From: a virus
Direction: 5' to 3' (one strand)
DNA: 59,542 nucleotides
Virus record (IMG/VR): IMGVR_UViG_3300008120_005569
Location: 1 to 59,542 of that record
Below the pieces are notes generated by a model. It saw nothing but the letters and a program-made list of their open reading frames with translations, ran no database searches and was not told the DNA's origin. Shown one piece after another: positions 2,913 through 56,261 of this stretch (position 1 is the stretch's first letter; each line of letters starts with the position of its first letter). Made by a program: the position numbers and the translations under genes.

Positions 2913-4679
2913 ATGAACAGTCCTATTCAAAAACTCATTAAAGAATTAAATATATCAATCTTTAATGAAAATGAATTGGTTGATAAAGATGTTATTGTAT
3001 TTTTTCCAGGTCAATTCCAACCTATGGGACAACACCAACGTGAGGAATATTTACGCTTAAGTAGAAAATTTGGAAAAGATAATGTACACGTAATTACAGA
3101 TGACAAAATAAATCCTCAAAAAACTCCCCTTAGTTTTGAAGAGAAATCCTCGATAATAAGAAGACATGGTATAAAAAATATACAAAAGGTTTTGAATCCA
3201 TATATGCCAACCGAACTAATAAACAAATTAGATCCAAATAATACAATTCTTATTTTTGCGGTTAGCTCAAAAAATGTATCCAAATTAAAAAATTTTAAGA
3301 AGATAACAAAATATAATGGCTCATCTAAACTACCAATCAAAGATGCACAAAATCCATACGTTTATTATATCCTAACCAATGAAGTTAAGTATGATTTACC
3401 AAGTTTTGGTAGATTAAATTCAACTAATATATTTAGGGCTTTAAGTGACCGTGAGGCAAAATTGTCAGAATTAAAGAGTAGATTCATTTCAATATTTGGT
3501 TGGTTTGATGCAAATTTATTTAATATGATTATAAAAAAATTCAACACAACTCGTGGTGAACTAAAAGATGGTAAGGAAGAATTAAAACCCTTACAAATGG
3601 TTACAAGAACATTTTGGAATAAAGTGTATGAAAGTATTGTTGGCGATAAAAATATAAACGAGGTTGCCACGTTACCACAGACTATGTTAGATGAAATAGA
3701 AAAAATTGCAAAACAATTCTTTCATAAAATAGAATCTGAGGTAAAAAACGATATTGATGCTGATAATTTCGACAGTAAAATAAGATTCAACATATTAGAC
3801 GATATGACTGAATTATCTACGGAATCAACTAAGATAATAAATGATATTATTAAATCAGAACCTTATGTTCAAGAATTGGAAAAAACAAACCCAAATGCTT
3901 TTAATAACATAAAATTACATACATTTACTGTGGTTGTAAGGCCTAAACGATTTGTAATAGATCAAACATATGATAAATTTGGTAAACTAATAGATTTGGC
4001 ATTAGACGATGAAATGCCCGGGACTTTTACAGAAAAGTTAAATAGTTTTAAGAAAACGGAGATTTGGAAAGATTATGAGTTAGAGCTAAAGAAATTAAAG
4101 AACCATAATGATTTTTCAGTTGGAAGTAGAGCCAAGTTTAATTCAACAGGTTCTATTTACAAAAAAGATTTTAAAGCAACTCTGATAGTAAATTTTGATT
4201 GGTTTTTAATGTATCTAAAGTTGTTATTAGTAAAAAATGGATTTATACAAATATCATTAAATAAAGTTGTTGACGATTACGTGAAAGGTGTCTATATTGG
4301 TTTAGTTTCACATGAACTTATACATTTTGTTCAAACTATAAAACAACAAATACAAACAGGAGAACGTCAGGCATCAAAGTATGAATTTAGCAGCCCTGAC
4401 AAGTTAGGATATGAAAAATTTAATAAGATGTATTTATCCGATAAAGCTGAAATTGGTGCTCATGCACAACAGTTTGTTACTGATTTAAAAAAGGCTTATC
4501 CGAGTAAATCAGCAGATGATTTATTAAAAATGTTTCAATCGGGTAAATTACCAAAGAAGAAATTCTCACCAATGTATAATTATATTGGTTACTATATGAA
4601 ACTATTAAATAAAGGAAAACAGGACGATACTGTTAAACGGTTTATAAAAACCGTATTTTTGATATTAAAAAAAGACTAA
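2913..4679 (+). CDS. Nucleotidyltransferase-like domain fused to a putative HExxH metalloprotease-like domain
   Basis: A 588-residue protein. I chose ATG 2913 (AGAGGCG upstream) over the longer frame from 2886, which overlaps the preceding gene. Residues 26-100 resemble the cytidylyltransferase/NMN-adenylyltransferase fold: VIVFFPGQFQPMGQHQ corresponds to the GRFQPxHxGH loop, but the expected first histidine is replaced, so catalysis is uncertain. Residues 460-480 contain SHELIHFVQ, an HExxH zinc-protease motif with His467, Glu468 and His471; a third ligand may lie in the downstream EIGAHAQQF region. The middle (about 230-450) is helical and unassigned. Virion or head-assembly proteins with cytidylyltransferase-like domains are known in T4-like phages. 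The combination with a protease-like motif is unusual; both activities are inferred from motifs only. Confidence 0.55.
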   Translation: MNSPIQKLIKELNISIFNENELVDKDVIVFFPGQFQPMGQHQREEYLRLSRKFGKDNVHVITDDKINPQKTPLSFEEKSSIIRRHGIKNIQKVLNPYMPTELINKLDPNNTILIFAVSSKNVSKLKNFKKITKYNGSSKLPIKDAQNPYVYYILTNEVKYDLPSFGRLNSTNIFRALSDREAKLSELKSRFISIFGWFDANLFNMIIKKFNTTRGELKDGKEELKPLQMVTRTFWNKVYESIVGDKNINEVATLPQTMLDEIEKIAKQFFHKIESEVKNDIDADNFDSKIRFNILDDMTELSTESTKIINDIIKSEPYVQELEKTNPNAFNNIKLHTFTVVVRPKRFVIDQTYDKFGKLIDLALDDEMPGTFTEKLNSFKKTEIWKDYELELKKLKNHNDFSVGSRAKFNSTGSIYKKDFKATLIVNFDWFLMYLKLLLVKNGFIQISLNKVVDDYVKGVYIGLVSHELIHFVQTIKQQIQTGERQASKYEFSSPDKLGYEKFNKMYLSDKAEIGAHAQQFVTDLKKAYPSKSADDLLKMFQSGKLPKKKFSPMYNYIGYYMKLLNKGKQDDTVKRFIKTVFLILKKD

Positions 4680-31835: not shown

Positions 31836-34800
31836 ATGTCATTGTTAGACTTAAAATCAGATTTATCAAAATACCGTTGGAAAGGTCCAGGTGCCCCCGT
31901 AGATCCAAGCTCGAAAACACCTAGGGCAACGAGTTATGGCGATAACTTTGGTTCGTTTCAACCAATATCCAATACGTTTATAAAATCGGGTAATTTACCA
32001 AAAGTCGTTCAACCAAAGGAAGTTGATTTGATTGGGAAGTTAGATGACACCCGTTTGGATAATATAGTTACTGATATGCGTGAATCACAATTGGTTCAAC
32101 GTTTAGAAAATACAAGATTGGATGATATACAAAAACCACAAAATAGAAATATTCTTATTAATGCTGTTTCATCATTATCACCACAGGCAAAAGACGATGT
32201 TACAAACCAATTCAATAGAATAACAACGGAAGATGTTACATCCGAATTAGCAAAAATAAATCAAGATATATCTCAGACAAACATAACAAAATCAGATGTT
32301 GTGGTTTTGAAATCAACAACCGCTGGTGAAAACAACACAAGGTCTAATGTTGATATAATAAAGAGTGACAATCAACGTGGTAATGTACGTGATCCAAACG
32401 TTGTAATAAATAGGACACCATTATTCATAAATAGAGAAGCACAGTCTGCTGTAATAATAAAAGATTTAAGAACAACAACAGACAATATAACAGATCCTGG
32501 AACACCTGTAAACAAAGTTGTTCAAACGGTAGATAGACAAAATCAATCGCCATCAATAAACACCTACAATGATTTAAATGGTTCTATTGTTAATTTAGAG
32601 ACAAATAATTTAGTAGATGATACACAATTTGATATTGTTGGTACACCATCAAGATACAACACAGATTCCAAATTAGTATTGAAACAACGTGCAACTATTG
32701 ACACAACACGATACGATCAGGTATCCGATATATTGGGTGCGCCAAGTAATCTAAACTTGGATGACGTTAGCGAAACAAACCCAAGTGGAAGACATAACAC
32801 AGATAGAAACACGGAACTGTCAAATAAAAATGGCCAAGAAATAGACTTCTTTCCCAACACAAATGCAGAAGGGTTCACTAACAAAGTCCAATCGGGTGTA
32901 ACCGAATACGATTTGGATTCTTCGGTTTTAGGATTTGACGGTGTAACTGAAGCAAATTACTTTGATATAACAAATAGATTTACAACTGAAGGATTCCACG
33001 CATTTGCACAGACACGTGAAGACACGAAATTTAAAGATGGTGCTTCTGAGTTTGATTGGGATAAAAATGTACCACTATCGGATTACTTTGATACAAATAG
33101 AACCTATACAAGAAGTGGATTTCATTCGTTTGCACAAACAGGTGAGGCCACCAAGTATAAAGTAGAGTCGAGTATTTTCGATTGGGATGGTGTTAGAACA
33201 CAGTCACCATCGGTAAATTATTTTGACCTAACCAATAGATATACAACAGATGGATTTCACAACTTTGCAGTAGAGTATGATACAAAATACATAGTTGGTT
33301 CTTCTAGATTTGATTGGGACGGTTTACGTGGTAGTGCTCCATCTACAAATTATTTCGATGTTGCTAACATAAGTACATTTAGAGGATTTCACAATTTTGC
33401 AATAACTAAAGAACCAACATCATATCAAACAAGACTGTTAGGAAGTTCTTTAGTATTAACAGACAACGCTTCTTTATTGGATTGGGATGGATTAACAGTT
33501 CCAACCGTTAACTTTTTTGATTTAACAAATAGAAGCACATTTCGTGGATTTCATGCTTTTGCAACAACAAGAGAAGCTACTTCGTATCAAACATCACTGA
33601 TTGGTAGTTCTTTAGTTCTCACCAATAACGCCTCATTCTTGGATTGGGATGGGACTGTGAATAATGTACCCACTGTTAATTTCTTTGACCAAAATAATCT
33701 TAGAACATTTCGTGGTTTCCATTCATTTGCAACAACATTAGAACCAACTTCATATCAAAATGTTAGAGTTGGAACCGCGTTTACACTTAGAACAAATGCT
33801 ACGGTATTTGATTGGAATGGTGTACGTGTAAATGCTCCTGCTGTAAACTTCTTTGATCAAAATAATATTAGAACATTTAGAGGTTTTCATACCTTTGCAC
33901 AAACTCTTGAACCAACTTCATATCAAACAAATGCAATTGGAACTACATTAGCATTAAGACCAAACGCAACTGTATTTGATTGGAACGGTATACGTGTAAA
34001 TGCTCCTGCTGTAAATTTCTTTGATTTAACAAATCTACATACATTTAGAGGATTCCATACTTTCTCAACAACATTGGAACCAACTTCGTATATTCAGGGT
34101 GCATCATTTTTAGATTGGGATGGTCTAAGAGCCGCAGCTCCTGCCGTTGATTTCTTTCCATCTTATGCTGTTCCACGTGGATTCCACACATTTGCAAGAG
34201 AATATGATACGTCATATAGAAATATACAATTGGGTTTAACATCTGTATTAGATCCATTTGCTTCGTTTTTAGATTGGGATAGTCCGTTTTTAATAAATAC
34301 ACCACAACAACCAGGTGCTCCTGCTGTTAACTTCTTTGATTTAACTAATAGAAGTACAACTCGTGGTTTTCATCTATTTGCACAAACAGGTGAACCAACG
34401 TCATATAGAATACAAAGATTGGGACAAGGTGGATTTGGTTTAGATCCAAATGCTTCATTTTTAGATTGGACTGGTGGTAGACAAAACGCACCAACTGTAA
34501 ATTATTTTGCTAATTGGCCTGCTGGACCAACAACGAGAGGGTTCCATGCTTTTGCTCAGCAAGCTGAACCTACATCTTTTGCAACTGTTCAATCGGGAAA
34601 TGTAATAGCACTGAGAGCAAATACATCAAGATTTGATTGGAACGGTTCAAGTACATTTGCTCCAGCCGTTGATTTCTTTCCATCGTATGCTGTTCCACGT
34701 GGATTCCATACCTTTGCAAGAACATTTGACACATCGTATAGAACTACACAAGTTGGACTGACATCAGTATTAGATCCATTTGCTTCAGCATTTGATTGGG

Positions 34801-37800
34801 ATAGCCCATTCTTAGTAAATACAGCACAACAACCAGGTGCTCCTGCGGTTAACTTCTTTGATTTAGCAAACAGAAGTACAACTCGTGGATTCCATACATT
34901 TTCGCAAACAGGTGAACCAACATCATACCAAACAAGAAGATTGCAGGGTGGTGGATTTGGATTGACAGATAATGCTTCTTTCTTGGATTGGAATGGTGGA
35001 AGACAGAACGCTCCAACCGTTAACTTCTTCGATCCAAATAATATAAACACATTAGCGGGATTCCATTCGTTTGCAACAACACGTCAAAATACACGGTATA
35101 ATACTGGAACAATAGGTAACAACCTCTTAGCACCAGGTGCAACTACATTTGATTGGAACGGTTTGCGTAATAATGCTCCTGCTGTTAATTTCTTTGATTT
35201 AAACAATGTAAGCACCACACGTGGATTCCACACATTTGCTGACTTGAGTGGTGGAACAACCGCTTATAGATTGGCAGTAGGATTTAATCCAGTTTTGGGT
35301 GGTTCTGTAAACTTTTTAGCACCAGGTGCTACTAATTTTGATTGGGACGGTTTAGATCCATATTCAATTAGAACAACTAATTTCTTTGGATTCACAAACA
35401 CAACAAGATTTGGATTCATGGTGAACATGTCTCAATTCGATGGAACAGCCTATCCAATAATAAATCCAAGATTTAATGCTAATATACTTCGTATTCAAGG
35501 TGTAGGACAACGAGCTCAAAGATTTGGTTTGACAACATTTAGACAATTATTACAACCACTTCAAACAAGTAACTTAGAACAATTTGCACCCGCTACATTT
35601 GGTGGAAAAACTATATCCGGATTTAGGTCAACATTAGACATCCAAACACCGGCGGTAATACTACAAAAATTTAACTTGAATGTAGCAACTAATCGTGTTA
35701 GAATAAACCCAACTGCTCCTGGATTTACAAAGAGATATACTTCAGGTGGGGGTGTTGATATAAGACCATCAACCGTTGACGGAACAATTGAAAGTTGGGC
35801 TAATAGTAACTCATTACCACTACAAGTACCGTTTTCTGGAAATCAGTCAGATACATTAATAGAAAGACTACAAAAGAAATATAGATTAAGAGATGAGGCA
35901 TATAATACCGATATATTTGGATTAAGACAACCATTTGTAGATGATTCATTACATGGACCTGAATCGGTTTCTATGTTCCCGTTTGATGATGGTTTGGTTC
36001 GTGGTGGTATAGTAAACAACACAATAAGTGCTTTATTAGATTCAGTACGAATCGGTAAGTTTCTATTGTCGGGTAGAGGTATACTTTTCAACATAAAACA
36101 ATCAGGCCTTCAGGCTATGAATCCTAATGTTGATAAACCAACTGCTAATAATCCAATTGATAGTTTTTTAAATCTACCAAGCATAATATCAACGAAGGCA
36201 CCAAGTCAATTTTACAATCCACTTTCAATACCTAGAAATGTTTTAGAAGTCGGTCCTTTGGGTAATAGATACGCTCGTCATGGTATAATGATGGATGGTG
36301 TGTTCGGTAGATATGAACGTGTTGCTATAGACAGAGCTTTGAATTCAGATAAGTACAGTTACTTTGATGAATTTTCAGATTCAGCTGATAATAACTATAA
36401 TAGATTAATTGGTTTGGTTAAAGAGTTATTGCCAAATTCATACGATCCAATAAGACAGAACACATTACCAAAACAAAATACTCAGTTAGAAATAAATAGA
36501 ATATCATCGTCACACGGTGGGCCTGGATCTTTATTAGGATTTTTTGGTACAACAATTAATAGAGCAACTCATCCATTTAAGATTGTAAATTCAACCAATT
36601 ATATTCCAGAGCAAGTAAATGTAACTTTAGGATTAGACCGCGAAGTATTTTTCTCAGCGAGATATGACAGTGGAAACCGTCAGACTGATACATATTCTGA
36701 AATGTTATTACGTCAAATTGAAAAATATGACGGTGATATGCATGGTTTAATTTTAGATGCAGCTATGCTTTCTATAACACAAGTAGCTCCATCACCACGG
36801 AATGCAAGCACCACAGCCGATAGTCAACTCTATACACCATCATTTTCTGACAGTAGAAAAAATAAAATAAATTCTGCGGATTCAAAAATACAGTTAATAA
36901 CAAGACAACGTATTGGTGCATCTAAAGTTTTTGATTTTAAAAAACCAACTACAACGGAGAGATTTAAAGCTATAAACGGTGGTTACATACCATACCGAGA
37001 TAAAAATGAAAGTATATTTGACGAAATATTCTTTGTAGGGTCCAAAAATAAAAAAACATATTACGATAGACTATTCGGTGAAACAGATGGTGAATCAACA
37101 AAATACGGAAATGCGTATGGTGTTATGTTAGGTTCAACCGTTGGGATTGTATCATCAGGACTGCTGCCAAAATTTGTAGATGGAAGACAGATAATAGACA
37201 AAACAGAATTTAAAGTACCATTAAACAAATACGATAAACGTAGAATCGAAGAATTAGATGTCTTTGGTTTTAAACAAATACCAATAAAGGAAAGAGGACG
37301 CCGTGTTATAAGTGAGAACATAACACCAAGAAAAGATTTGTTGGAGTTAGCTTCTGAAACCTTTTTCACCTCAAATTTAATAAGAAGTGATGTAAATTTA
37401 ATATCAAGATTCTCATATGGCGATTATTTGTTGGGTAGATTGCCTGACGGAGAAACTCAACAAGTTGTACTAAACCCACAGGATCAAAATGAATTTTCTT
37501 TAGGTATATTAGGTTCATTAACGTTGAATCAAAAATTAGAGGGTATACATAGAAAATTTGAAGGTGATGTTGTAATAGAAGCTGAATACAATAAGATACC
37601 TATAAACGATAAAACAAAAACTCTTATTGAAAAATTAAAACCCTTTGAATTTATACCTCCAACAGTTAACAGTAGATATAAAGCTGTAACAAGTGAAAAT
37701 GCTTACCGAGAAGGTGAAAATCTTTATAGTGAGATGTATTTTGGAAGTGCAAAATCAAAATACGATGTATTGGTTGGTAAAACAGTAGACAAACTAAGTT

Positions 37801-40514
37801 ATGGTGCAAAATTAAAAGACGATTGGGCTACTAAAAATTCAAGAGTATATGGGTTAGTGTTAGCAGCTGCTACTTTAAATTTAAGAAAAACAGCGTCTTC
37901 ACCAAGAAATGCGTCTACAATAATAGTTGGTGGTCCAACTTGGGATTCTTATGTAAATGGTAATTTCGATGGGACAGCTGCAAATGAAGCATATCCACTC
38001 AGTGAAGTAGCAATTAACAGTGAAACTGTACAAACACTAAAAGCATTAAAAACATTTGATTTTAAATACCCAAATCCATATGAAAGGTTCAGTGCTTTAA
38101 GTGCTTTGGGTGAAAATTTTAGAGAGGGTAACAGATCTTTATCAAATGGACCTGATATTGATGAATCTGCTAAAAATGTAAATCCATTATTAAAGTACAA
38201 AACAACACGATATAGTCAATTAGGTGAGACACGGAGTTCAAATGCTTGGTGGAGTGCTTCTCAACCAACTGACTTTAGAGATAAGATAATAGATGGTACT
38301 GAGTATTTTTCAACCGATCCAAGAGTTGTAAATTATAAAAAATATGGAGTGGAATTAAGAGGCGATGGTACTGGATTCGGTGACCCAGGTCTTCCTGGAT
38401 ATAGAAAGAATTTACCGTACATTAGCAATATACATTATACTTCGGGTCTTTCACGTGCAGCTGCGGACTCATTTGCGAGTGGCAGTAAACAAAATAATCA
38501 GCCTGCTAATAGAAAATATGGTGCATATCCAAATACTAAACCCGAAATACTTAAACGAGAACAGGCTGAAAGAGAGAATGGTAATCCAACAGCAACTTTC
38601 TTCAGAGGCGATAGAATAAACATAATAGATTGGAAGCGGTCTGAACAGAATATAAATGTTAATAATGTTTACGAAAAAACTTCACCGTATGGAAATCAAA
38701 TGTTAGGTTCACAAGACCTAATACAGTTTTACTTCTCAGGTGTAGATTTGATTGCTTCTGAAAATAAGCCAACTGAAGCTATAGTATTTCGTGCTTACAT
38801 CGATACTATTTTGGATAACCACAAACCAACGTGGACTCCAATTAAATATATTGGTAGAGCCGATCCTGTTTATTCTTATGACAGTTACGAAAGAGAAATA
38901 TCATTTGGATTCACAGTACATACAGGAACTCGTGACGAATTAAAAGCAACATGGCGTAAATTAAACATGCTTGCTTCATGGACTACACCTGACTATGTAG
39001 ATCCAGGATTTATGAAGGCACCTATATGTAGATTAAACATCGGTAATCTTTATCGTAAATTCCCAGGATTTATAAGTTCACTGACGTATACTTTTGATAA
39101 TACAATGACTACGTGGGAAACTGCAAAATTAGCTGAAGATTTAAATATATCAGATCGTAATATAGGACCATTATCAAAACCAGGTGCTTTGGAATTGCCA
39201 AAAACTATTTTAGTTCAATGCACATTTGTGACATTTAACATATACAGACCACAGTGGGATTGTGTGTTCTATTCATTATTCGATGATACAACGGGTGGAA
39301 CATCCGTTGAAACAGGTTTGGTTCCAAGGAGTGATGACCGTGTTAATTACTTCAGAACACATGATGATTTACCAGTTACACATCCTATGAACGCTTTATT
39401 GTGTGCGGTAATACCACCGCCACCACCTCCACCAGTTCCTAAAAAGAGAACAATAACAGCAGGTGGACCTGGAGGCGAAGCAACAACACCACCACCAACA
39501 ACACCGCCACCAACAACGCCACCACCTACAACCGCTCCTCCTAATTTGCCGGAGAAGATTTGTATTTGCAAAATAGATTTTTGCTTTGATGAGGACCGTG
39601 AAATAACTCCCGAATCAAGACGAGCAGTAATTCAAGTTGCAAATTGGTTAAATGAATGTCCGAATATACGTGTCAATGTAAAGGCGTATTGTTCAAGAGA
39701 GGCTGATAACTTTGCTTATAATAAATTGTTATCTATGGCAAGAGCTGTAACGGTATGTAATTTGCTTATAGAAGAATGTGGAATAGCTTCTAATAGATTG
39801 GTTCCCGTTGGTATGGGATTTGGTGATTACAAAGAGGCATACAAACCAGAATCTAAAAATAGATGGGCAAAACAACAGAATAGACGAGTTATATTTGAGA
39901 TAATAGAAGGAGCTGATTCTTGTAACTATAAACCAAGTTTTGACTGTAACCCAGAACTACCCGAATGCGATAAGTCAGAATACTGTTACAGAAAAGATGG
40001 TACTAAGTTTTGGAGAGTTGGTCCACATTACTTCACAGGTAATAGATTTATAGAGGAGGGTGGAAAGAGTGTCGGTGAAACATACACAGGATGGCCAAAG
40101 AGCACTGGCCCAATACGTCCTCCAGGATTAAGTATCGGGGCGTTCAACTCCAAAACTAAATTAGAATTACCGTTTGCAGCCGATTTAACAAAGAGACTTG
40201 CTTGGCATAAATCATATAGAATACAAAATCCAGACGAGACTCAAGGCGTTGCTCAACAAACATATAACGTTTGGTTCGATCCATTATTAGATGCTAAACA
40301 GCATTTTCAATTGGAAGGTACTTCTGAAAAACCTGTGATAACAATTTCGGGTGGTGATACACCAATAGATATTTGGCGTCGTAGATATAATAGAGATACC
40401 AACATAAAGAATACAAAAGGAAAACAAACACACGTCAACACTGGATTTTCGGGTAAAAAGAAAGGTGAAGATGGATTGGATAATGTGACATACATAATAA
40501 ATCCAAATAAGTAA
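31836..40514 (+). CDS. Giant baseplate/tail protein: GFHxFA repeats, gp48/54-like domain, OmpA-like domain
   Basis: A 2892-residue protein. Residues 1-345 are Asn/Thr/Asp-rich. About 350-1190 hold fifteen copies of a (V/D)-x-F-FD...T-x-RGFHxFA...EPTSY module. About 1640-2050 hold a second duplicated module with SPRNAST. About 2280-2490 resemble T4-type gp48/gp54 baseplate-tube junction proteins (FRAYIDTILDNHKPTWTPIK, YIGRADPVYSYDSYEREISF, FRxGTRDELK-type TGTRDELKATWRKLNMLASW). After a proline/threonine linker, residues about 2573-2700 form an OmpA-like domain (ICKIDFCFDEDREITPESRR, VKAYCSREADNFAYNKLLSM, RLVPVGMGFGD, QQNRRVIFEI). It probably spans the baseplate and contacts peptidoglycan on attachment. 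Such a fusion is unusual; the role is inferred. Confidence 0.75.
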   Translation: MSLLDLKSDLSKYRWKGPGAPVDPSSKTPRATSYGDNFGSFQPISNTFIKSGNLPKVVQPKEVDLIGKLDDTRLDNIVTDMRESQLVQRLENTRLDDIQKPQNRNILINAVSSLSPQAKDDVTNQFNRITTEDVTSELAKINQDISQTNITKSDVVVLKSTTAGENNTRSNVDIIKSDNQRGNVRDPNVVINRTPLFINREAQSAVIIKDLRTTTDNITDPGTPVNKVVQTVDRQNQSPSINTYNDLNGSIVNLETNNLVDDTQFDIVGTPSRYNTDSKLVLKQRATIDTTRYDQVSDILGAPSNLNLDDVSETNPSGRHNTDRNTELSNKNGQEIDFFPNTNAEGFTNKVQSGVTEYDLDSSVLGFDGVTEANYFDITNRFTTEGFHAFAQTREDTKFKDGASEFDWDKNVPLSDYFDTNRTYTRSGFHSFAQTGEATKYKVESSIFDWDGVRTQSPSVNYFDLTNRYTTDGFHNFAVEYDTKYIVGSSRFDWDGLRGSAPSTNYFDVANISTFRGFHNFAITKEPTSYQTRLLGSSLVLTDNASLLDWDGLTVPTVNFFDLTNRSTFRGFHAFATTREATSYQTSLIGSSLVLTNNASFLDWDGTVNNVPTVNFFDQNNLRTFRGFHSFATTLEPTSYQNVRVGTAFTLRTNATVFDWNGVRVNAPAVNFFDQNNIRTFRGFHTFAQTLEPTSYQTNAIGTTLALRPNATVFDWNGIRVNAPAVNFFDLTNLHTFRGFHTFSTTLEPTSYIQGASFLDWDGLRAAAPAVDFFPSYAVPRGFHTFAREYDTSYRNIQLGLTSVLDPFASFLDWDSPFLINTPQQPGAPAVNFFDLTNRSTTRGFHLFAQTGEPTSYRIQRLGQGGFGLDPNASFLDWTGGRQNAPTVNYFANWPAGPTTRGFHAFAQQAEPTSFATVQSGNVIALRANTSRFDWNGSSTFAPAVDFFPSYAVPRGFHTFARTFDTSYRTTQVGLTSVLDPFASAFDWDSPFLVNTAQQPGAPAVNFFDLANRSTTRGFHTFSQTGEPTSYQTRRLQGGGFGLTDNASFLDWNGGRQNAPTVNFFDPNNINTLAGFHSFATTRQNTRYNTGTIGNNLLAPGATTFDWNGLRNNAPAVNFFDLNNVSTTRGFHTFADLSGGTTAYRLAVGFNPVLGGSVNFLAPGATNFDWDGLDPYSIRTTNFFGFTNTTRFGFMVNMSQFDGTAYPIINPRFNANILRIQGVGQRAQRFGLTTFRQLLQPLQTSNLEQFAPATFGGKTISGFRSTLDIQTPAVILQKFNLNVATNRVRINPTAPGFTKRYTSGGGVDIRPSTVDGTIESWANSNSLPLQVPFSGNQSDTLIERLQKKYRLRDEAYNTDIFGLRQPFVDDSLHGPESVSMFPFDDGLVRGGIVNNTISALLDSVRIGKFLLSGRGILFNIKQSGLQAMNPNVDKPTANNPIDSFLNLPSIISTKAPSQFYNPLSIPRNVLEVGPLGNRYARHGIMMDGVFGRYERVAIDRALNSDKYSYFDEFSDSADNNYNRLIGLVKELLPNSYDPIRQNTLPKQNTQLEINRISSSHGGPGSLLGFFGTTINRATHPFKIVNSTNYIPEQVNVTLGLDREVFFSARYDSGNRQTDTYSEMLLRQIEKYDGDMHGLILDAAMLSITQVAPSPRNASTTADSQLYTPSFSDSRKNKINSADSKIQLITRQRIGASKVFDFKKPTTTERFKAINGGYIPYRDKNESIFDEIFFVGSKNKKTYYDRLFGETDGESTKYGNAYGVMLGSTVGIVSSGLLPKFVDGRQIIDKTEFKVPLNKYDKRRIEELDVFGFKQIPIKERGRRVISENITPRKDLLELASETFFTSNLIRSDVNLISRFSYGDYLLGRLPDGETQQVVLNPQDQNEFSLGILGSLTLNQKLEGIHRKFEGDVVIEAEYNKIPINDKTKTLIEKLKPFEFIPPTVNSRYKAVTSENAYREGENLYSEMYFGSAKSKYDVLVGKTVDKLSYGAKLKDDWATKNSRVYGLVLAAATLNLRKTASSPRNASTIIVGGPTWDSYVNGNFDGTAANEAYPLSEVAINSETVQTLKALKTFDFKYPNPYERFSALSALGENFREGNRSLSNGPDIDESAKNVNPLLKYKTTRYSQLGETRSSNAWWSASQPTDFRDKIIDGTEYFSTDPRVVNYKKYGVELRGDGTGFGDPGLPGYRKNLPYISNIHYTSGLSRAAADSFASGSKQNNQPANRKYGAYPNTKPEILKREQAERENGNPTATFFRGDRINIIDWKRSEQNINVNNVYEKTSPYGNQMLGSQDLIQFYFSGVDLIASENKPTEAIVFRAYIDTILDNHKPTWTPIKYIGRADPVYSYDSYEREISFGFTVHTGTRDELKATWRKLNMLASWTTPDYVDPGFMKAPICRLNIGNLYRKFPGFISSLTYTFDNTMTTWETAKLAEDLNISDRNIGPLSKPGALELPKTILVQCTFVTFNIYRPQWDCVFYSLFDDTTGGTSVETGLVPRSDDRVNYFRTHDDLPVTHPMNALLCAVIPPPPPPPVPKKRTITAGGPGGEATTPPPTTPPPTTPPPTTAPPNLPEKICICKIDFCFDEDREITPESRRAVIQVANWLNECPNIRVNVKAYCSREADNFAYNKLLSMARAVTVCNLLIEECGIASNRLVPVGMGFGDYKEAYKPESKNRWAKQQNRRVIFEIIEGADSCNYKPSFDCNPELPECDKSEYCYRKDGTKFWRVGPHYFTGNRFIEEGGKSVGETYTGWPKSTGPIRPPGLSIGAFNSKTKLELPFAADLTKRLAWHKSYRIQNPDETQGVAQQTYNVWFDPLLDAKQHFQLEGTSEKPVITISGGDTPIDIWRRRYNRDTNIKNTKGKQTHVNTGFSGKKKGEDGLDNVTYIINPNK
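32880..35420 (+). repeat. Fifteen-copy GFHxFA protein repeat with internal block duplication
   Basis: Fifteen GFH(A/S/N/T/L)F(A/S) modules of about 45-70 residues, with degenerate flanking copies. The two-module block starting VPRGFHTFAR...TSVLDPFAS and ending GGFGL...RQNAPTVN occurs twice (about 34150-34520 and 34670-35030), showing a recent segmental duplication. Confidence 0.9.
39410..39545 (+). repeat. Proline/threonine linker repeats before the OmpA-like domain
   Basis: A run of six prolines (PPPPPP), then repeated PPPTT units encoded by ACCACCACCAACAAC-type 15-bp repeats. It is a rigid tether between the baseplate domain and the peptidoglycan-binding domain. Confidence 0.85.
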
Positions 40515-49846: not shown

Positions 49847-50889
49847 ACAAAAAATATGCAAACATATTAAACGAAATTGAGTTTGAAAGAGAAACCCAAA
49901 GTTCACTAACCCGTGATGATAAGGTTTTGATTGTTGATGGTATGAATCTGTTTATAAGAACATTTTCAGCCATACCTACTTTGAACGAAGAAGGTAAACA
50001 CGTTGGCGGGTTATCTGGATTTTTACTATCATTAGCTTCAACTATCCGTATGGTTAACCCCACACGGGTAGTTGTTGTTTTTGACGGTAAGGGTGGTTCA
50101 TACAGAAGAAAACAAGTCTATTCAAACTATAAAGAAAAACGTGCAATAACAACTCGATTGAATAGAATTGTTGGTTTTGAAGACATACAAGACGAGCAAG
50201 CCTCAATAAAATATCAACTGTATCGTGTATACAATTATCTACAGAATTTACCAATAACAACAATATCAATAGACCAAATAGAGGCTGATGACGTTATAGC
50301 TTATTTGGCATCATACTTTAAAAAGAAAGTTGTTATATTATCAAACGATAGGGATTTTTTACAATTGGTTTCAGATAGAGTTAGTGTATATTTACCAACA
50401 AAAAAACAAATGTATACACCCGATATTTTGTTGGAGGAGACTGGAATTTGGTGTGAGAATTTTATATTATACAAATCATTATTAGGTGATAAAAGTGATA
50501 ATATAAAAGGTATGAGTGGTATAGGTAAAAAAACAATTGAAAAAAATTTTCCGATGCTATCCGAAAAAAGAAAAATTGATTTGGAAATGTTCTTAGAATT
50601 TTGTAAATTATACGATGGAAAAGTTAAATCACTAAACAACTTAAAAGATAATTTGAAATCATTCGAGACAAATTATCAGATAATGCAATTACATGATGTT
50701 GATATATCACAATCACACAAATCAAATATAAGAAATTTAGTTGATGGTGATGTTGATGGTATACGATTGGTTGAATTAAGTAAGTTATACATTCAAGATA
50801 AATTACATTCTGTTATTCCAAATTGGGATAGTTGGGTAAAAAAGAATTTCAATTCATTAAATGAGCTTAGGAATAAACATGCAAGATAG
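49843..50889 (+). CDS. 5'-3' exonuclease / RNase H-like (FEN family)
   Basis: A 348-residue protein overlapping uvsX by ATGA. Metal-binding motifs of the PIN/FEN nuclease fold: VLIVDGMNLFIRTF (Asp32), VVVVFDGKGGSYRRKQVYSN, QIEADDVIAYL, VVILSNDRDFLQL, then the helix-hairpin-helix SLLGDKSDNIKGMSGIGKKT. It should remove RNA primers and flaps from lagging-strand fragments, like T4 RNase H or the Pol I N-terminal domain. Because the family A polymerase at 45093 lacks a 5' nuclease domain, this gene probably supplies that activity. Confidence 0.9.
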   Translation: MNKKYANILNEIEFERETQSSLTRDDKVLIVDGMNLFIRTFSAIPTLNEEGKHVGGLSGFLLSLASTIRMVNPTRVVVVFDGKGGSYRRKQVYSNYKEKRAITTRLNRIVGFEDIQDEQASIKYQLYRVYNYLQNLPITTISIDQIEADDVIAYLASYFKKKVVILSNDRDFLQLVSDRVSVYLPTKKQMYTPDILLEETGIWCENFILYKSLLGDKSDNIKGMSGIGKKTIEKNFPMLSEKRKIDLEMFLEFCKLYDGKVKSLNNLKDNLKSFETNYQIMQLHDVDISQSHKSNIRNLVDGDVDGIRLVELSKLYIQDKLHSVIPNWDSWVKKNFNSLNELRNKHAR

Positions 50890-52267
50890 TTTGGCGGATT
50901 ATGGTCATTCATTTCAAACAAAAGTAATATCAATACTATTATCCGATAAAGCATTTCTACAACAAGTTTCAGATATAATCGAACCGTATTATTTTGAATC
51001 ACAAGCCAATAGTTGGTTAGTAGAAAAAGTATTGTCATACCATAACATATACAGAAACACACCAACATCAGAAGTATTAAAATCCGAAGTTCTGTCAATA
51101 GAAGATTCAGCACTTAAAACATCCGTTGTTAAAACAATTAAAGATATAAAGTCATTTAAAGAATCAACAGACTTTGAATATATCAAGAGTGTTGTTCTTC
51201 AGTTCTGTAAAAATCAAAAGATGAAAGGTGCTATACTCGATTCAGTGGATTTGCTGAAGTCCGGAAACTTTGATTTGATTAAGAAGAAGATAGATACTGC
51301 TATGAAAGCCGGTGCTGATAAAGATATTGGTCACGAATATAAGGTGGATATTTCTGCACGGTATGAAGAAGGTTCACGTGATTGTGTTTCTACTGGTTGG
51401 AATGTTATAGATGACGTTATGAACGGTGGTCTTGCTGGTGGTGAATTGGGAATTGTAGTTGCTCCTGCTGGTATAGGTAAGAGTTGGGCATTGGTAAGTA
51501 TAGCTGCAAATGCTGTAAAGGCGGGTAAAACAGTAATCTATTATACATTAGAATTAAATCAATTTTATGTTGCACGTAGATTTGATGCGTTCTATACTAA
51601 GATACCATTTCAAGACTTAAACCAAGAACATGCTCAAGAAAAAATTAGAGAGAATATTGACACTTTGAAAGGTGAATTGATTTTAAGATACTATCCAACT
51701 AAAACTGCAAGTGTAATAACATTAAGTTCACATATAGAAAAATGTATTAGTCAAAATAAAAAACCAGATTTAATTGTAGTTGATTACGCTGATTTGATAA
51801 AACCATCAAAGGCGGGTGATAAGAGATTGGAATTGAATGACATATACGAAGATTTGCGTGGTCTTGCTGGAACTTACAACATTCCTATATGGAGTGCTTC
51901 CCAAGCGAATAGGTCATCGTTAGAAGATGATATTATTGAAGGTGGAAAAGTGTCCGAGTCATATAATAAACTAATGATTGCAGATTTCGTAGTGTCTTTA
52001 TCAAGAAAGGTAAATGATAAAATAGGTGGTACTGGTAGATTCCACACTATTAAAAACCGTTTCGGACCTGACGGAATGACTTTCCCAAGTAAAATAAATA
52101 CTATGAACGGTAATATAGAAATATATGAACCCAATTCTGATATGGGTAAGAGTATAAGTTCTTCTATGAATGGCGAACCACTTGCTAAGAAACTAATGAG
52201 TACGCGTTTGAAAGAGTTAGGTGGGATAGAAAGTTTAGAAAATTCCAATAAATTTGAAGCGTTTTGA
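50879..52267 (+). CDS. 41: Replicative DNA helicase (gp41/DnaB-like)
   Basis: A 462-residue protein. ATG 50879 is preferred because AGGA (50869-50872) is 6 nt upstream; ATG 50861 would overlap more. Residues 1-130 form the N-terminal collar domain (FLQQVSDIIEPYYFESQANS). The RecA-like motor has Walker A APAGIGKS at 195-202, YYTLELNQFYVARRFDAF, Walker B LIVVDYADLIKP, and WSASQANRSSLEDDIIEGGK. It is a ring helicase that unwinds DNA 5'-3' at the fork. No gp61-type primase is found in this window. It overlaps the exonuclease end by 11 nt. Confidence 0.93.
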   Translation: MQDSLADYGHSFQTKVISILLSDKAFLQQVSDIIEPYYFESQANSWLVEKVLSYHNIYRNTPTSEVLKSEVLSIEDSALKTSVVKTIKDIKSFKESTDFEYIKSVVLQFCKNQKMKGAILDSVDLLKSGNFDLIKKKIDTAMKAGADKDIGHEYKVDISARYEEGSRDCVSTGWNVIDDVMNGGLAGGELGIVVAPAGIGKSWALVSIAANAVKAGKTVIYYTLELNQFYVARRFDAFYTKIPFQDLNQEHAQEKIRENIDTLKGELILRYYPTKTASVITLSSHIEKCISQNKKPDLIVVDYADLIKPSKAGDKRLELNDIYEDLRGLAGTYNIPIWSASQANRSSLEDDIIEGGKVSESYNKLMIADFVVSLSRKVNDKIGGTGRFHTIKNRFGPDGMTFPSKINTMNGNIEIYEPNSDMGKSISSSMNGEPLAKKLMSTRLKELGGIESLENSNKFEAF

Positions 52268-52287: not shown

Positions 52288-53013
52288 ATGGCATATTTAA
52301 ATTCACCAATACCTGTAATAGATTGTTTTGTACGTGGTAACTTTTTAAGAGACCAAAAAGACCACTTTGATAAAAAATTTCCTTGTTTTATAATTGGAAT
52401 ATCGTCTATACCTGGTAAAACACCATTGTTTCACTTTGTTATGGAAGATGGCGGTGTGTGGTGGAGAATGCCTATACATGCCTTTTGTTGGAAAGAAGAT
52501 GCTGAGCAACAGGAATTGGATGAATTGGTATTGTGGGATTCTTTCTCATACCACGTATCAGTCACACAATTTCCGTATTTTAAAGATAAGGCTGTTAAAT
52601 TTATATCAAGGCGTAGGAATGAGTATAGAGGAAGATACTTATTCACAATAGATTGGGCTGCAAGTACTGATTCAGGGGACACGGATTATCTATTCTCAGA
52701 ATATCCGTCACAACATAAATGCGGCCACGTGATAATGATGGACAACGGCAATTTTGCGATACAACCTAATAATCGTTTTAGGCTTCATGATCCAGCGTTC
52801 ACTACAAAGGAGGAACTTGTTATCGAAAGAATGTATAACAATACTCTGTGGACTGCTGAACGGAATCACCGATGGGTTACACCCGATACAGATAATATGA
52901 ATTACGATCATACTGATTTGGATGCTGGTGAATCTAATTTAGAAAGATCTAAATACTATAACGAGAGGTTAAATGAAAATACGAGTCAGTCATGTAAACG
53001 GAAAATACGATGA
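52288..53013 (+). CDS. Conserved phage protein, unknown function
   Basis: A 241-residue protein. Highly patterned core: IPVIDCFVRGNFLRDQKDHF, FVMEDGGVWWRMPIHAFCW, LWDSFSYHVSVTQFPYF, YLFTIDWAAS, and HKCGHVIMMDNGNFAIQPNN followed by RF-x-x-HDP. This type is widespread in T4-like marine phages as a conserved hypothetical. Rich in aromatics and conserved His/Cys, so an enzyme or metal site is possible, but none can be assigned. Its end overlaps the next gene by 41 nt. Confidence 0.6.
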   Translation: MAYLNSPIPVIDCFVRGNFLRDQKDHFDKKFPCFIIGISSIPGKTPLFHFVMEDGGVWWRMPIHAFCWKEDAEQQELDELVLWDSFSYHVSVTQFPYFKDKAVKFISRRRNEYRGRYLFTIDWAASTDSGDTDYLFSEYPSQHKCGHVIMMDNGNFAIQPNNRFRLHDPAFTTKEELVIERMYNNTLWTAERNHRWVTPDTDNMNYDHTDLDAGESNLERSKYYNERLNENTSQSCKRKIR

Positions 53014-53554
53014 TGAACAAGGCACCGATCTATGTGAACTGTTTTGTATACCTGAAGGTGAGACCAGTACTTACCTTTTTGAAAATGGATGGTTGCCAAC
53101 ATCTAATAACGAATGGTATCAATCAAGATCTTCAAGATTAAAGATTGGTCAATTAACATCAAGAAGAAAATATCAACTGAGAAAAATGTCCGTTAATACA
53201 AATGGAGATTACAGAAAGATATTTGAATCGTCTAAGTTTCTATACAACCAAAGTATAGAAGAATTTTTGGATACTGTTTTGTCTTTTAAACATGAAATAT
53301 ATTATTTTGATAATAGTGTGTTTGGTGTTTTAAATTGGTTTGATGAAATACCTTATTTTTCATTCGTGGTTGGTGGTAAAAACGGTAAAGGTGGTATAAT
53401 ACCAATGACCTGTTATTACTTCTTAAACAAATTAAAAGACCACACATACCCCTATCTATACATAGGAGAGTGGTATGAAGATTTTTATTATAAATCAAGT
53501 TATCCCAATTTTGAATGGTGGGATGGTGAAAAATGGTTAGATAATATAATATAA
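52973..53554 (+). CDS. ATE/Bpt-like aminoacyl-tRNA-protein transferase homologue
   Basis: A 193-residue protein with GAGAGG ahead of ATG 52973. It parallels bacterial Bpt/ATE arginyl/leucyl-tRNA-protein transferases: YLFENGWLPTSNNEWYQSR matches the YExLMxxGFRRSGxxxYxP segment, LTSRRKYQLRKM matches LSRSQKRLLSK, GGIIPMTCYYFLNKLKDHTY matches the helix before the active strand, and PYLYIGEWYEDFYYKSSYPN with a terminal W-x-x-x-x-WL matches YLYLGYxIxxxxxMxYKxxF. The Cys-rich N-terminal motif of true ATE enzymes is missing, and the protein is shorter. The fold should be a double-GNAT acyltransferase; the substrate is unknown. Such enzymes tag N-termini for ClpS/ClpAP degradation, so a role in redirecting host proteolysis is possible (inference). 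Confidence 0.5.
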   Translation: MKIRVSHVNGKYDDEQGTDLCELFCIPEGETSTYLFENGWLPTSNNEWYQSRSSRLKIGQLTSRRKYQLRKMSVNTNGDYRKIFESSKFLYNQSIEEFLDTVLSFKHEIYYFDNSVFGVLNWFDEIPYFSFVVGGKNGKGGIIPMTCYYFLNKLKDHTYPYLYIGEWYEDFYYKSSYPNFEWWDGEKWLDNII

Positions 53555-53667: not shown

Positions 53668-55521
53668 ATGGATATTAGCAATAGGATTCTTTCTGAAATA
53701 ACAGTTCATATGAAATATGCTCGATTTGTTCCCGAAAAGAATAGACGAGAGACTTGGGATGAATTGGTAACAAGAAATAAAGAAATGCATCAAAGAAAAT
53801 ACCCACAATTAACCGATGAAATAGAAAGGGTTTATAAGTTGGTGTATGATAAAAAAGTTTTACCATCAATGCGTTCTTTACAATTTGGTGGAAAGCCTAT
53901 TGAAATATCCCCAAATAGAGTCTATAATTGTGCTTATATGCCAATAGATGATTGGCGTGCATTTGGTGAAGTGATGTTTCTCCTATTAGGTGGTACAGGA
54001 GTAGGGTACTCAGTACAAACACACCACGTTGAAAAATTACCACCAATCCATAGACCTAAATCAAAAGAGAGAAGATTCCTTATTAGTGATTCTATTGAGG
54101 GTTGGGCAGATGCAATAAAAGCCCTTATGAAATCATACTTCACAGGTGGTTCATCTATGAGATTCGATTATTCAGACATCCGTCACAAAGGAGCAAGACT
54201 AATTACAAGTGGTGGAAAGGCACCTGGACCAGAACCACTTCGTATTTGTATAGAAAAAATTAGAGCAATGCTTGACCTAAAAACTGATGGTGAACAACTC
54301 AAACCTATTGAAGTTCACGATATTGTATGTCATATTGCAGATGCCGTTCTTGCTGGAGGAATACGCCGTGCAGCTTTAATATCACTATTCTCAGCTGACG
54401 ATGATGATATGATTTCTTGTAAGTTTGGTAATTGGTGGGAACTAAATCCACAGAGAGGCCGTGCTAATAACTCCGCTGTTCTGCTACGTAGTAAAGTGTC
54501 AGAAGAATTTTTTAAATCACTTTGGAAAAAGATAGAGTTGTCAAACGCGGGTGAACCAGGTATTTATCTTTCAAATGATAAAGATTGGGGAACCAATCCT
54601 TGCTGTGAAATCGCGTTACGTCCATTCCAATTCTGTAACTTATGTGAAGTAAACGTGTCTGATGTAGAATCACAAGAAGACTTGGAAGAACGTGTTAAGG
54701 CTGCAACCTTCATCGGAACTATGCAAGCTGGATATACGGATTTCCATTATCTACGTCCTATTTGGCAAAGAACAACTGAAAAGGACGCTTTACTTGGTGT
54801 TGGTATGACTGGAATAGGATCGGGTAAAGTACAAAAATTAGACTTGAAAGCAGCTGCAAAAGCATCGAGAGAAGAAAATGAAAGGGTTGCTTCAATAATT
54901 GGTATAAATAAATCTGCGAGAACAACAACAATTAAACCAGCAGGAACATCATCATTGACATTGGGTTGTTCATCTGGCATTCATGCTTGGCATAATGATT
55001 ATTATTTACGCCGTGTTCGTGTTGGTAAGAATGAGGCAATTTACACATACTTAAAAATAAATCACCCCGAATTAGTTGAAGATGAATATTTCCGTCCACA
55101 CGATACAGCTGTCATTGGGGTTCCACAGAAAGCACCTGAAGGTTCAATTCTTCGTAGTGAGAGTCCATTGCAATTGTTAGAGAGAGTAAAGTGGTTCAAT
55201 CAAAATTGGATTAAACCCGGACATAGAACAGGTATGAACACTCACAACATATCCGCAACAGTTTCTATACGTGAACACGAATGGGATGCTGTTGGAAATT
55301 GGATGTGGGAAAATAAAGAACACTTCAATGGTCTTTCAGTACTGCCATACGATGGTGGAACTTATATTCAGGCACCATTTGAAGATATTGATGAAGAAAA
55401 ATTCAACAAGTTGATTGAAACTCTACAGGATGTTGATTTGAGTGGTGTTATCGAAATGGAAGACAATACCGATTTGACAGGTGAACTTGCGTGTGCGGGT
55501 GGTGCTTGTGAGATAAAATAA
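53668..55521 (+). CDS. nrdJ: Class II (B12-dependent) ribonucleotide reductase
   Basis: A 617-residue monomer-type reductase similar to Lactobacillus RTPR (739 residues) but shorter. Visible: MRSLQFGG near 72-79; active-site Cys88 in YNCAYMP; GGTGVGYSVQTHHVEKLP; ADAVLAGGIRRAALISLF; the thiyl-radical loop NPCCEIAL (Cys312, Glu314) followed by CNLCEVN; TIKPAGTSSLTLGCSSGIHA; and a C-terminal redox pair CAGGAC (Cys609, Cys614). It makes dNTPs from NTPs using adenosylcobalamin and needs no oxygen and no NrdB-type subunit. It therefore depends on cobalamin in the host. GGAGAG precedes ATG 53668; it stands alone between terminators. Confidence 0.93.
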   Translation: MDISNRILSEITVHMKYARFVPEKNRRETWDELVTRNKEMHQRKYPQLTDEIERVYKLVYDKKVLPSMRSLQFGGKPIEISPNRVYNCAYMPIDDWRAFGEVMFLLLGGTGVGYSVQTHHVEKLPPIHRPKSKERRFLISDSIEGWADAIKALMKSYFTGGSSMRFDYSDIRHKGARLITSGGKAPGPEPLRICIEKIRAMLDLKTDGEQLKPIEVHDIVCHIADAVLAGGIRRAALISLFSADDDDMISCKFGNWWELNPQRGRANNSAVLLRSKVSEEFFKSLWKKIELSNAGEPGIYLSNDKDWGTNPCCEIALRPFQFCNLCEVNVSDVESQEDLEERVKAATFIGTMQAGYTDFHYLRPIWQRTTEKDALLGVGMTGIGSGKVQKLDLKAAAKASREENERVASIIGINKSARTTTIKPAGTSSLTLGCSSGIHAWHNDYYLRRVRVGKNEAIYTYLKINHPELVEDEYFRPHDTAVIGVPQKAPEGSILRSESPLQLLERVKWFNQNWIKPGHRTGMNTHNISATVSIREHEWDAVGNWMWENKEHFNGLSVLPYDGGTYIQAPFEDIDEEKFNKLIETLQDVDLSGVIEMEDNTDLTGELACAGGACEIK

Positions 55522-55820: not shown

Positions 55821-56261
55821 ATGATAAAATTATTAGACATATTAACTGAAGCCTCGAAAAGAAAGAGAGAGCGGTGGAAACCTGTTAAAGGCTACGAAGA
55901 TTCTTATGAAATTTCTTCAACGGGTAAGTTAAAACGTTTAGCGGGAAAATCACCGTTCAAACGTTCAGGATATGATGACACAACCATAAGTCACGAAGAA
56001 ATAATACTTAAACCAAGAAAAACTAAAAAGGGTTATTTGGAATGTGAACTTATAAAATATAATAATGGTAAACGAGTTGTAGAAAAATTCTATCTACATA
56101 GATTGGTTGCACAATCGTTTTTACCGCCACCCGAAAAAGGAAAGGATCAAATAAACCATAAGAACGGAATACCAACTGATAATAACTATGCTAATTTAGA
56201 ATGGGTTGATAATGACGAAAATCAACAACATGCTAAAGATAAAAGAAATGGTGATGAATAA
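55821..56261 (+). CDS. HNH homing endonuclease with NUMOD4-like domain
   Basis: A 146-residue protein. WKPVKGYEDSYEISSTGKLK (residues 19-38) is the NUMOD4 DNA-binding motif. FYLHRLVAQSFLPPPEKGKD then INHKNGIPTDNNYANLEWV is the HNH nuclease core (His93, His113 and Asn pairs). Free-standing phage HNH genes of this kind cut cognate loci and spread by repair. It is inserted between a terminator and small genes, so it interrupts nothing. There is no Shine-Dalgarno sequence; the promoter-like octamer is 4 nt upstream of the ATG. Confidence 0.88.
   Translation: MIKLLDILTEASKRKRERWKPVKGYEDSYEISSTGKLKRLAGKSPFKRSGYDDTTISHEEIILKPRKTKKGYLECELIKYNNGKRVVEKFYLHRLVAQSFLPPPEKGKDQINHKNGIPTDNNYANLEWVDNDENQQHAKDKRNGDE

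Follow-up and report, generated by a model that had tools for sequence, protein, structure and literature searches.

A phage gene family with apparent kinship to ATE/Bpt aminoacyl-tRNA transferases but without their cysteine cluster

Enzymes of the ATE/Bpt type transfer an amino acid from tRNA to the front end of a protein. A viral gene that resembles them raises the question of whether phages possess such an enzyme of their own, and what it would modify. The gene lies at 52973-53554 on the plus strand of the window, by which we mean the whole stretch of 59,542 nucleotides analysed, IMG/VR virus record IMGVR_UViG_3300008120_005569. This record encodes portal, major head, tail-sheath and terminase proteins, and its nearest annotated relative is Microcystis phage Mel-JY01 (capsid 69.9%, helicase 61.6%). 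The gene is an uninterrupted ATG-initiated ORF of 193 codons, giving a protein of 193 amino acids, and the opposite strand is crowded with stops. The motif AGAGG stands directly 5' of the ATG, and the first 41 nt overlap the end of an upstream partner gene of the phrog_3704 family (52288-53013, plus strand; PHROG match 4.9e-52). A DnaB-like helicase gene (50861-52267, plus strand) closes the module on the left together with the phrog_3704 gene, and a ribonucleotide reductase (RNR) gene (53668-55521, plus strand) on the right, so that the original prediction was correct in placing the gene beside replication genes. The segments which it had picked out as ATE/Bpt-like are likewise all found in the ORF, namely NGW (38-40), YQSRSSR (49-55), SRRKYQLRK (63-71), YLYIGEW (161-167), KSSYPNFEW (174-182) and KWL (187-189).

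The gene is real and under purifying selection. Homologues in IMG/VR, together with dN/dS values of 0.09-0.22 in 11 of 12 pairs of ATE/Bpt-like genes (the remaining pair being saturated), put the ORF beyond chance. Close relatives in IMG/VR show 52-72% identity to the window protein and mostly occupy the same locus, and distant ones show 22-37%. An IMG/VR scan with a distant member as query gave 152 related stretches, of which 80 were kept, and the loci fetched for the family amount to 95 distinct genes. Relatives were seen solely among viral contigs from environmental DNA (IMG/VR). GenBank phages, searched by tblastn with four diverse members, yielded none; nor did plasmids, searched by tblastn with one member, or a homology scan of genome contigs, and a BFVD fold search with the window protein gave no match at E <= 0.001. 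By itself the window protein matches no Pfam or PHROG family; Pfam matches to SCNM1_acidic and DUF2510 were discarded as short and composition-driven. In three loci (L022-L024, near 4001-4072) the helicase-RNR junction keeps just the last ~22 codons of the ATE-like gene, and these scars indicate that the gene was lost there by deletion and is therefore an accessory one, dispensable in some settings.

To which family, then, does the protein belong? Profile and fold comparisons were made by hhalign, Foldseek and VIA-align, the hhalign references being 24 bacterial Bpt proteins, 47 Aat proteins and reversed Bpt as control. The family profile aligned with Bpt at E 8e-8 over 180 columns spanning both domains, and the distant members alone did so at 8e-10, with the reversed controls at 0.2-0.4 (0.4 for the family profile). 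The window clade alone reached the distant clade at 4.6e-22 and Bpt only at 5e-4 over the last 54 columns, so that the window protein is tied to Bpt chiefly by way of its relatives. Among the Pfam profiles, ATE_C (PF04377) is matched by 12 of 28 family members (best 5.8e-7) and not by the window protein alone; in whole-record searches of two overlapping sets, its cut-off was exceeded in 3 of 10 and 5 of 26 carrier records. ATE_N (PF04376) has no match at the ATE-like gene in 15 carrier records, and one sub-threshold match in record G007 falls away from that gene. Of the profile relations suggested for checking, that to ATE_C is seen in relatives, and those to ATE_N and to Aat (family profile E 0.3) were not found. 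Weak matches (E 3-9) to Citrobacter phages, at their dNMP kinase, were put down to chance. The sole strong Bpt matches among GenBank phages are the Acinetobacter phage MD-2021a contigs, and these were set aside after the one inspected proved to be host DNA: the contig L302 (CAKLQH020000030.1), filed as an Acinetobacter phage, carries its Bpt gene in an ftsK-trxB-aat-bpt-rimI stretch and is thus host chromosome.

The predicted fold leads to the same family. An AF2 model of the window protein (pLDDT 92.3, pTM 0.86) was built on the alignment that also served the hhalign route to Bpt, the two being different tests, and its best fold matches in the PDB are structures of ATE1 (8tzv, 8e3s, 7wfx), covering residues 1-193. 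Human ATE1 superposes with Z 11.7 and an rmsd of 4.3 over 189 residues, and the identity to ATE1 is 12-13%. Among the next matches are the tRNA-dependent transferases FemX, MprF/PGS and LFTR. The model has the two-part ATE architecture, with a small N-terminal beta domain followed by a GNAT core. The idea of an ATE/Bpt protein, in family as well as in fold, is accordingly borne out by the ATE_C matches, the hhalign alignment with Bpt and the ATE1 fold match; it survived scrutiny of the two outcomes that would contradict it, namely no GNAT/ATE relation and a different fold.

Since the GNAT core is common to many enzymes, an acyl-CoA-dependent acetyltransferase, or a DNA-modifying GNAT like Mom, might merely resemble ATE. 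Rac-type acetyltransferases and Mom are indeed encoded by some phages (PMC7824862), and GCN5-type chains appear at E ~0.25 in the PDB profile search. Yet the top match, ATE1, takes in the N-terminal domain, GNATs using CoA, like the other tRNA-dependent ones, mostly match the core only, and the Bpt profile match extends over both domains as well. The CoA pyrophosphate loop R/Q-x-x-G-x-G/A is absent from the window protein, whose aligned place reads KNGKGGIIPMT (SIG or SLG in distant members), and no Mom or acetyltransferase PHROG is matched. We regard this explanation as quite improbable.

Judged by sequence comparison, the window protein is homologous to ATE/Bpt, and it probably works like them. 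The likeness to Bpt (ATE_N + ATE_C) lies, besides the 180 homologous columns, in the same order of motifs and in five common residues: G39, R55, Y163, K174 and W188 are at least 90% conserved and identical in the phage family and Bpt, where they correspond to G48, R71, Y203, K217 and W231. Conserved columns of the two coincide above expectation (hypergeometric P 0.001, a rough value because the alignment itself rewards agreement). Codons 39-55 (GWLP..EWYQSRSSR; 53087-53137, plus strand) correspond, in the hhalign column map, to the ATE_N segment GFRRSG..YRP.C..C..C..R, from which they differ by deletion of the Cys segment. Codons 63-71 (53159-53185, plus strand), the segment SRRKYQLRK, form a basic helix (63-70 in the AF2 model) at the place of Bpt F.P.RSQRR. 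Codons 161-174 (YLYIGEWYEDFYYK; 53453-53494, plus strand), which hold Y163 and K174, align with Bpt YLGYWI....KM.YK, and codons 180-188 (FEWWDGEKW; 53510-53536, plus strand), ending in the counterpart of W231, are a nearly invariant signature of the family. The structure of ATE1 suggests possible roles for two of these elements. Helix alpha-f of ATE1 enters the acceptor-stem groove and bears a Lys/Arg patch (PMC10115844), and the basic helix 63-71 is suggested as its counterpart with a like role in acceptor-stem binding; in a HMMER alignment K174 falls roughly at K304 of scATE1, a residue of helix alpha-o (299-304), and this helix is close to the bound tRNA (PMC10115844).

In contrast to Bpt, the phage protein has 193 rather than ~240 residues, its ATE_N part is undetected and it lacks the C..CxxCxxC cluster. 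The loss of the cluster had been foreseen: the CxxCxxC segment is an 8-residue deletion in the phage family, the first Bpt Cys has no counterpart, and the remaining cysteines 21, 25 and 147 align with none of Bpt Cys 17/61/64/67. The motif LGYWI..KM.YK of Bpt is replaced by YIGEWY...YK, and the FEWWDG signature is phage-specific, the pattern FEWW-G--W being new and nearly invariant across the family. Eukaryotic ATE1, although it heads the PDB fold matches (residues 1-193, Z up to 11.7), differs in possessing the zinc-binding CxxC..CC and a large variable domain. Aat/LFTR shares the type, a GNAT-type tRNA-dependent N-terminal transferase, and a fold match of Z 8.2, but not a profile relation with the family; FemX, MprF/A-PGS and Sba18/Sbb17 match the GNAT core with Z 8.3-9.6, but mostly the core only and with no sequence relation in the PDB profile search. 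Because the Cys cluster and ATE_N fail, we do not claim canonical ATE/Bpt membership and file the family as a variant; we consider it fairly probable that it is a branch of the ATE/Bpt aminoacyl-tRNA transferases that is encoded by phages and does without the metal.

Several features speak against reading the protein as an ATE-like transferase, besides the absence of the Cys cluster, of an ATE_N signal and, in most carriers, of ClpS. Y206 of Bpt (in LGYW) is replaced by E, P, Q or S in the phage family, the SLG loop of Bpt is ITP-like in most of the window clade, and the window protein is slightly acidic overall (21 K+R, 26 D+E); the metal site, moreover, contributes to tRNA binding in ATE1 (PMC10115844). 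A catalytically dead homologue which acts by binding, for instance by sequestering aminoacyl-tRNA or blocking a host factor, would account for the missing metal site and Y206, and for the S-x-G loop that the window clade no longer has. It would leave the conservation of R55, Y163, K174 and W188 across members only ~25% identical without a reason, and as this conservation suggests a retained active site, we hold such a dead protein to be very improbable indeed. For an active ATE-like enzyme, the acceptor stem of a host aminoacyl-tRNA would be bound by the GNAT core together with the basic helix 63-71, and the amino acid would pass from the 3' end of the tRNA to an amine. During infection this acceptor would most likely be a protein N-terminus, of host or phage origin. 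That the family carries out such tRNA-dependent aminoacyl transfer is our prediction, made with somewhat better than even confidence.

The gene neighbourhoods bear on what the acceptor may be. Counted over the 95 distinct ATE-like genes, 25 lie directly 3' of a phrog_3704 gene, most between helicase and RNR as in the window and one of them at the very divergent locus L056; 10 follow the helicase by themselves and, on contigs long enough to show it, precede RNR; 42 have adjacent downstream, often overlapping, a gene for what we call the 'HE' protein; 14 adjoin a DUF6875-like gene, in many cases accompanied by amidinotransferase-like genes; and 4 are in other contexts, two at contig ends. The phrog_3704 gene is widespread without the ATE-like gene, and the helicase-RNR junction of Mel-JY01 has neither. 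Cyanophage and pelagiphage records label phrog_3704 as ferredoxin or PurM/phosphoribosylaminoimidazole synthetase, but Pfam supports neither label for the protein at 52288-53013 of the window, which is highly conserved and has an AF2 pLDDT of only 58.7. The 'HE' protein has the motif HE-x2-EKA...AH-x-IA (for example L083:4683-5138, L020:4674-5138 and L061:4659-5864); no Pfam match was found in the two scanned, and the C-terminal part of that of L061 matches phrog_36119. The DUF6875-like gene, with its PCPYA/PCPFA motif, is on the strand opposite the ATE-like gene (L055, L073, L080, L081, L288-L296, L300), and these loci often hold phrog_25854 proteins, amidinotransferase-like by eye. A dimethylarginine dimethylaminohydrolase-like gene (DDAH_eukar, 56 bits) was also observed at L083:1663-2451, ~1.5 kb upstream of the ATE-like gene.

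This variety of partners would suit an ATE-fold aminoacyl-tRNA-dependent ligase with a new acceptor, unrelated to N-degrons, in which the acceptor varies by lineage as the partner genes do, from phrog_3704 to the 'HE' protein to the DUF6875-like and amidinotransferase-like genes; it could be a small molecule or a nucleobase as well as a partner protein or the side chain of a Lys. The lost N-domain metal site and Y206 are in line with it, as are the absence of ClpS from most carriers and the presence of the tRNA-dependent small-molecule ligases Sba18/Sbb17 among the fold matches. Nevertheless, the model retains the ATE N-terminal domain, phrog_3704 widely occurs without the ATE-like gene, and the partners are putative substrates at most; we think a new acceptor unlikely, if less so than an acyl-CoA enzyme.

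For the protein N-terminus as acceptor, the consequence would depend on ClpS. Where it is available, encoded by the host or, in two relatives, by the phage, the product would be an N-degron leading to selective degradation. Of 62 records that carry the ATE-like gene, two have ClpS above the cut-off (78 and 84 bits), the ClpS/ClpX carrier loci being L304 (3120-4376 and 6932-7231) and L303 (7117-7440); Hsp20-like genes are near ClpS in both, and ClpX is near in one. The co-occurrence is suggestive but weak, because there are just two cases and they have surrounding genes in common. No ClpS was found in window-clade carriers within the 62 records, so these phages would need the ClpS of the host. 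ClpS is also rare in GenBank phages, where single-query tblastn found it in just 15 of 50,697 records; this number includes two Acinetobacter MD-2021a contigs, which belong to the set carrying host DNA. As a control genome, Synechococcus elongatus has ClpS and no match to ATE_C; if the host of the window phage were cyanobacterial, which Mel-JY01 merely hints at, the phage could supply the missing step. An N-degron as the outcome of the predicted transfer is thus plausible only, at a little short of even. Still more tentatively, a metal-free aminoacyl-tRNA transferase may serve many uncultured phages to mark a target that differs by lineage, be it a host protein, a partner protein or a small molecule. 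Some would pair it with a ClpS and ClpX of their own, and so run an N-degron system or another kind of tRNA-dependent modification.

The literature searched holds no report of a phage ATE/arginyltransferase or of protein tagging from aminoacyl-tRNA by phages, though prior mention in Iyer et al. 2009, on acetyltransferase-like amidoligases, is possible. The nearest published phage parallels are phage ClpS and the predicted R2K ATP-grasp ligases (PMC7824862). The ClpS adaptors of PA5oct-type jumbo phages (PMC7824862) are similar in being phage-borne parts of the N-degron route, with ClpS present in two carriers here, but differ in that GenBank phages, ClpS-bearing ones included, have no tblastn match to the ATE-like family. 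Such a family could let phages directly set protein half-lives during infection, and it would show whether the ATE fold works without the metal site, which in ATE1 is debated between zinc and Fe-S (PMC10115844). Its role is amenable to experiment, given the small size of the protein and the deletions that occur naturally in close relatives.

Two further features were observed in the window, a NUMOD4/HNH homing-type endonuclease at 55821-56261, 3' of the RNR gene, and a 2892-aa ORF at 31836-40514, downstream of the tail-sheath gene.
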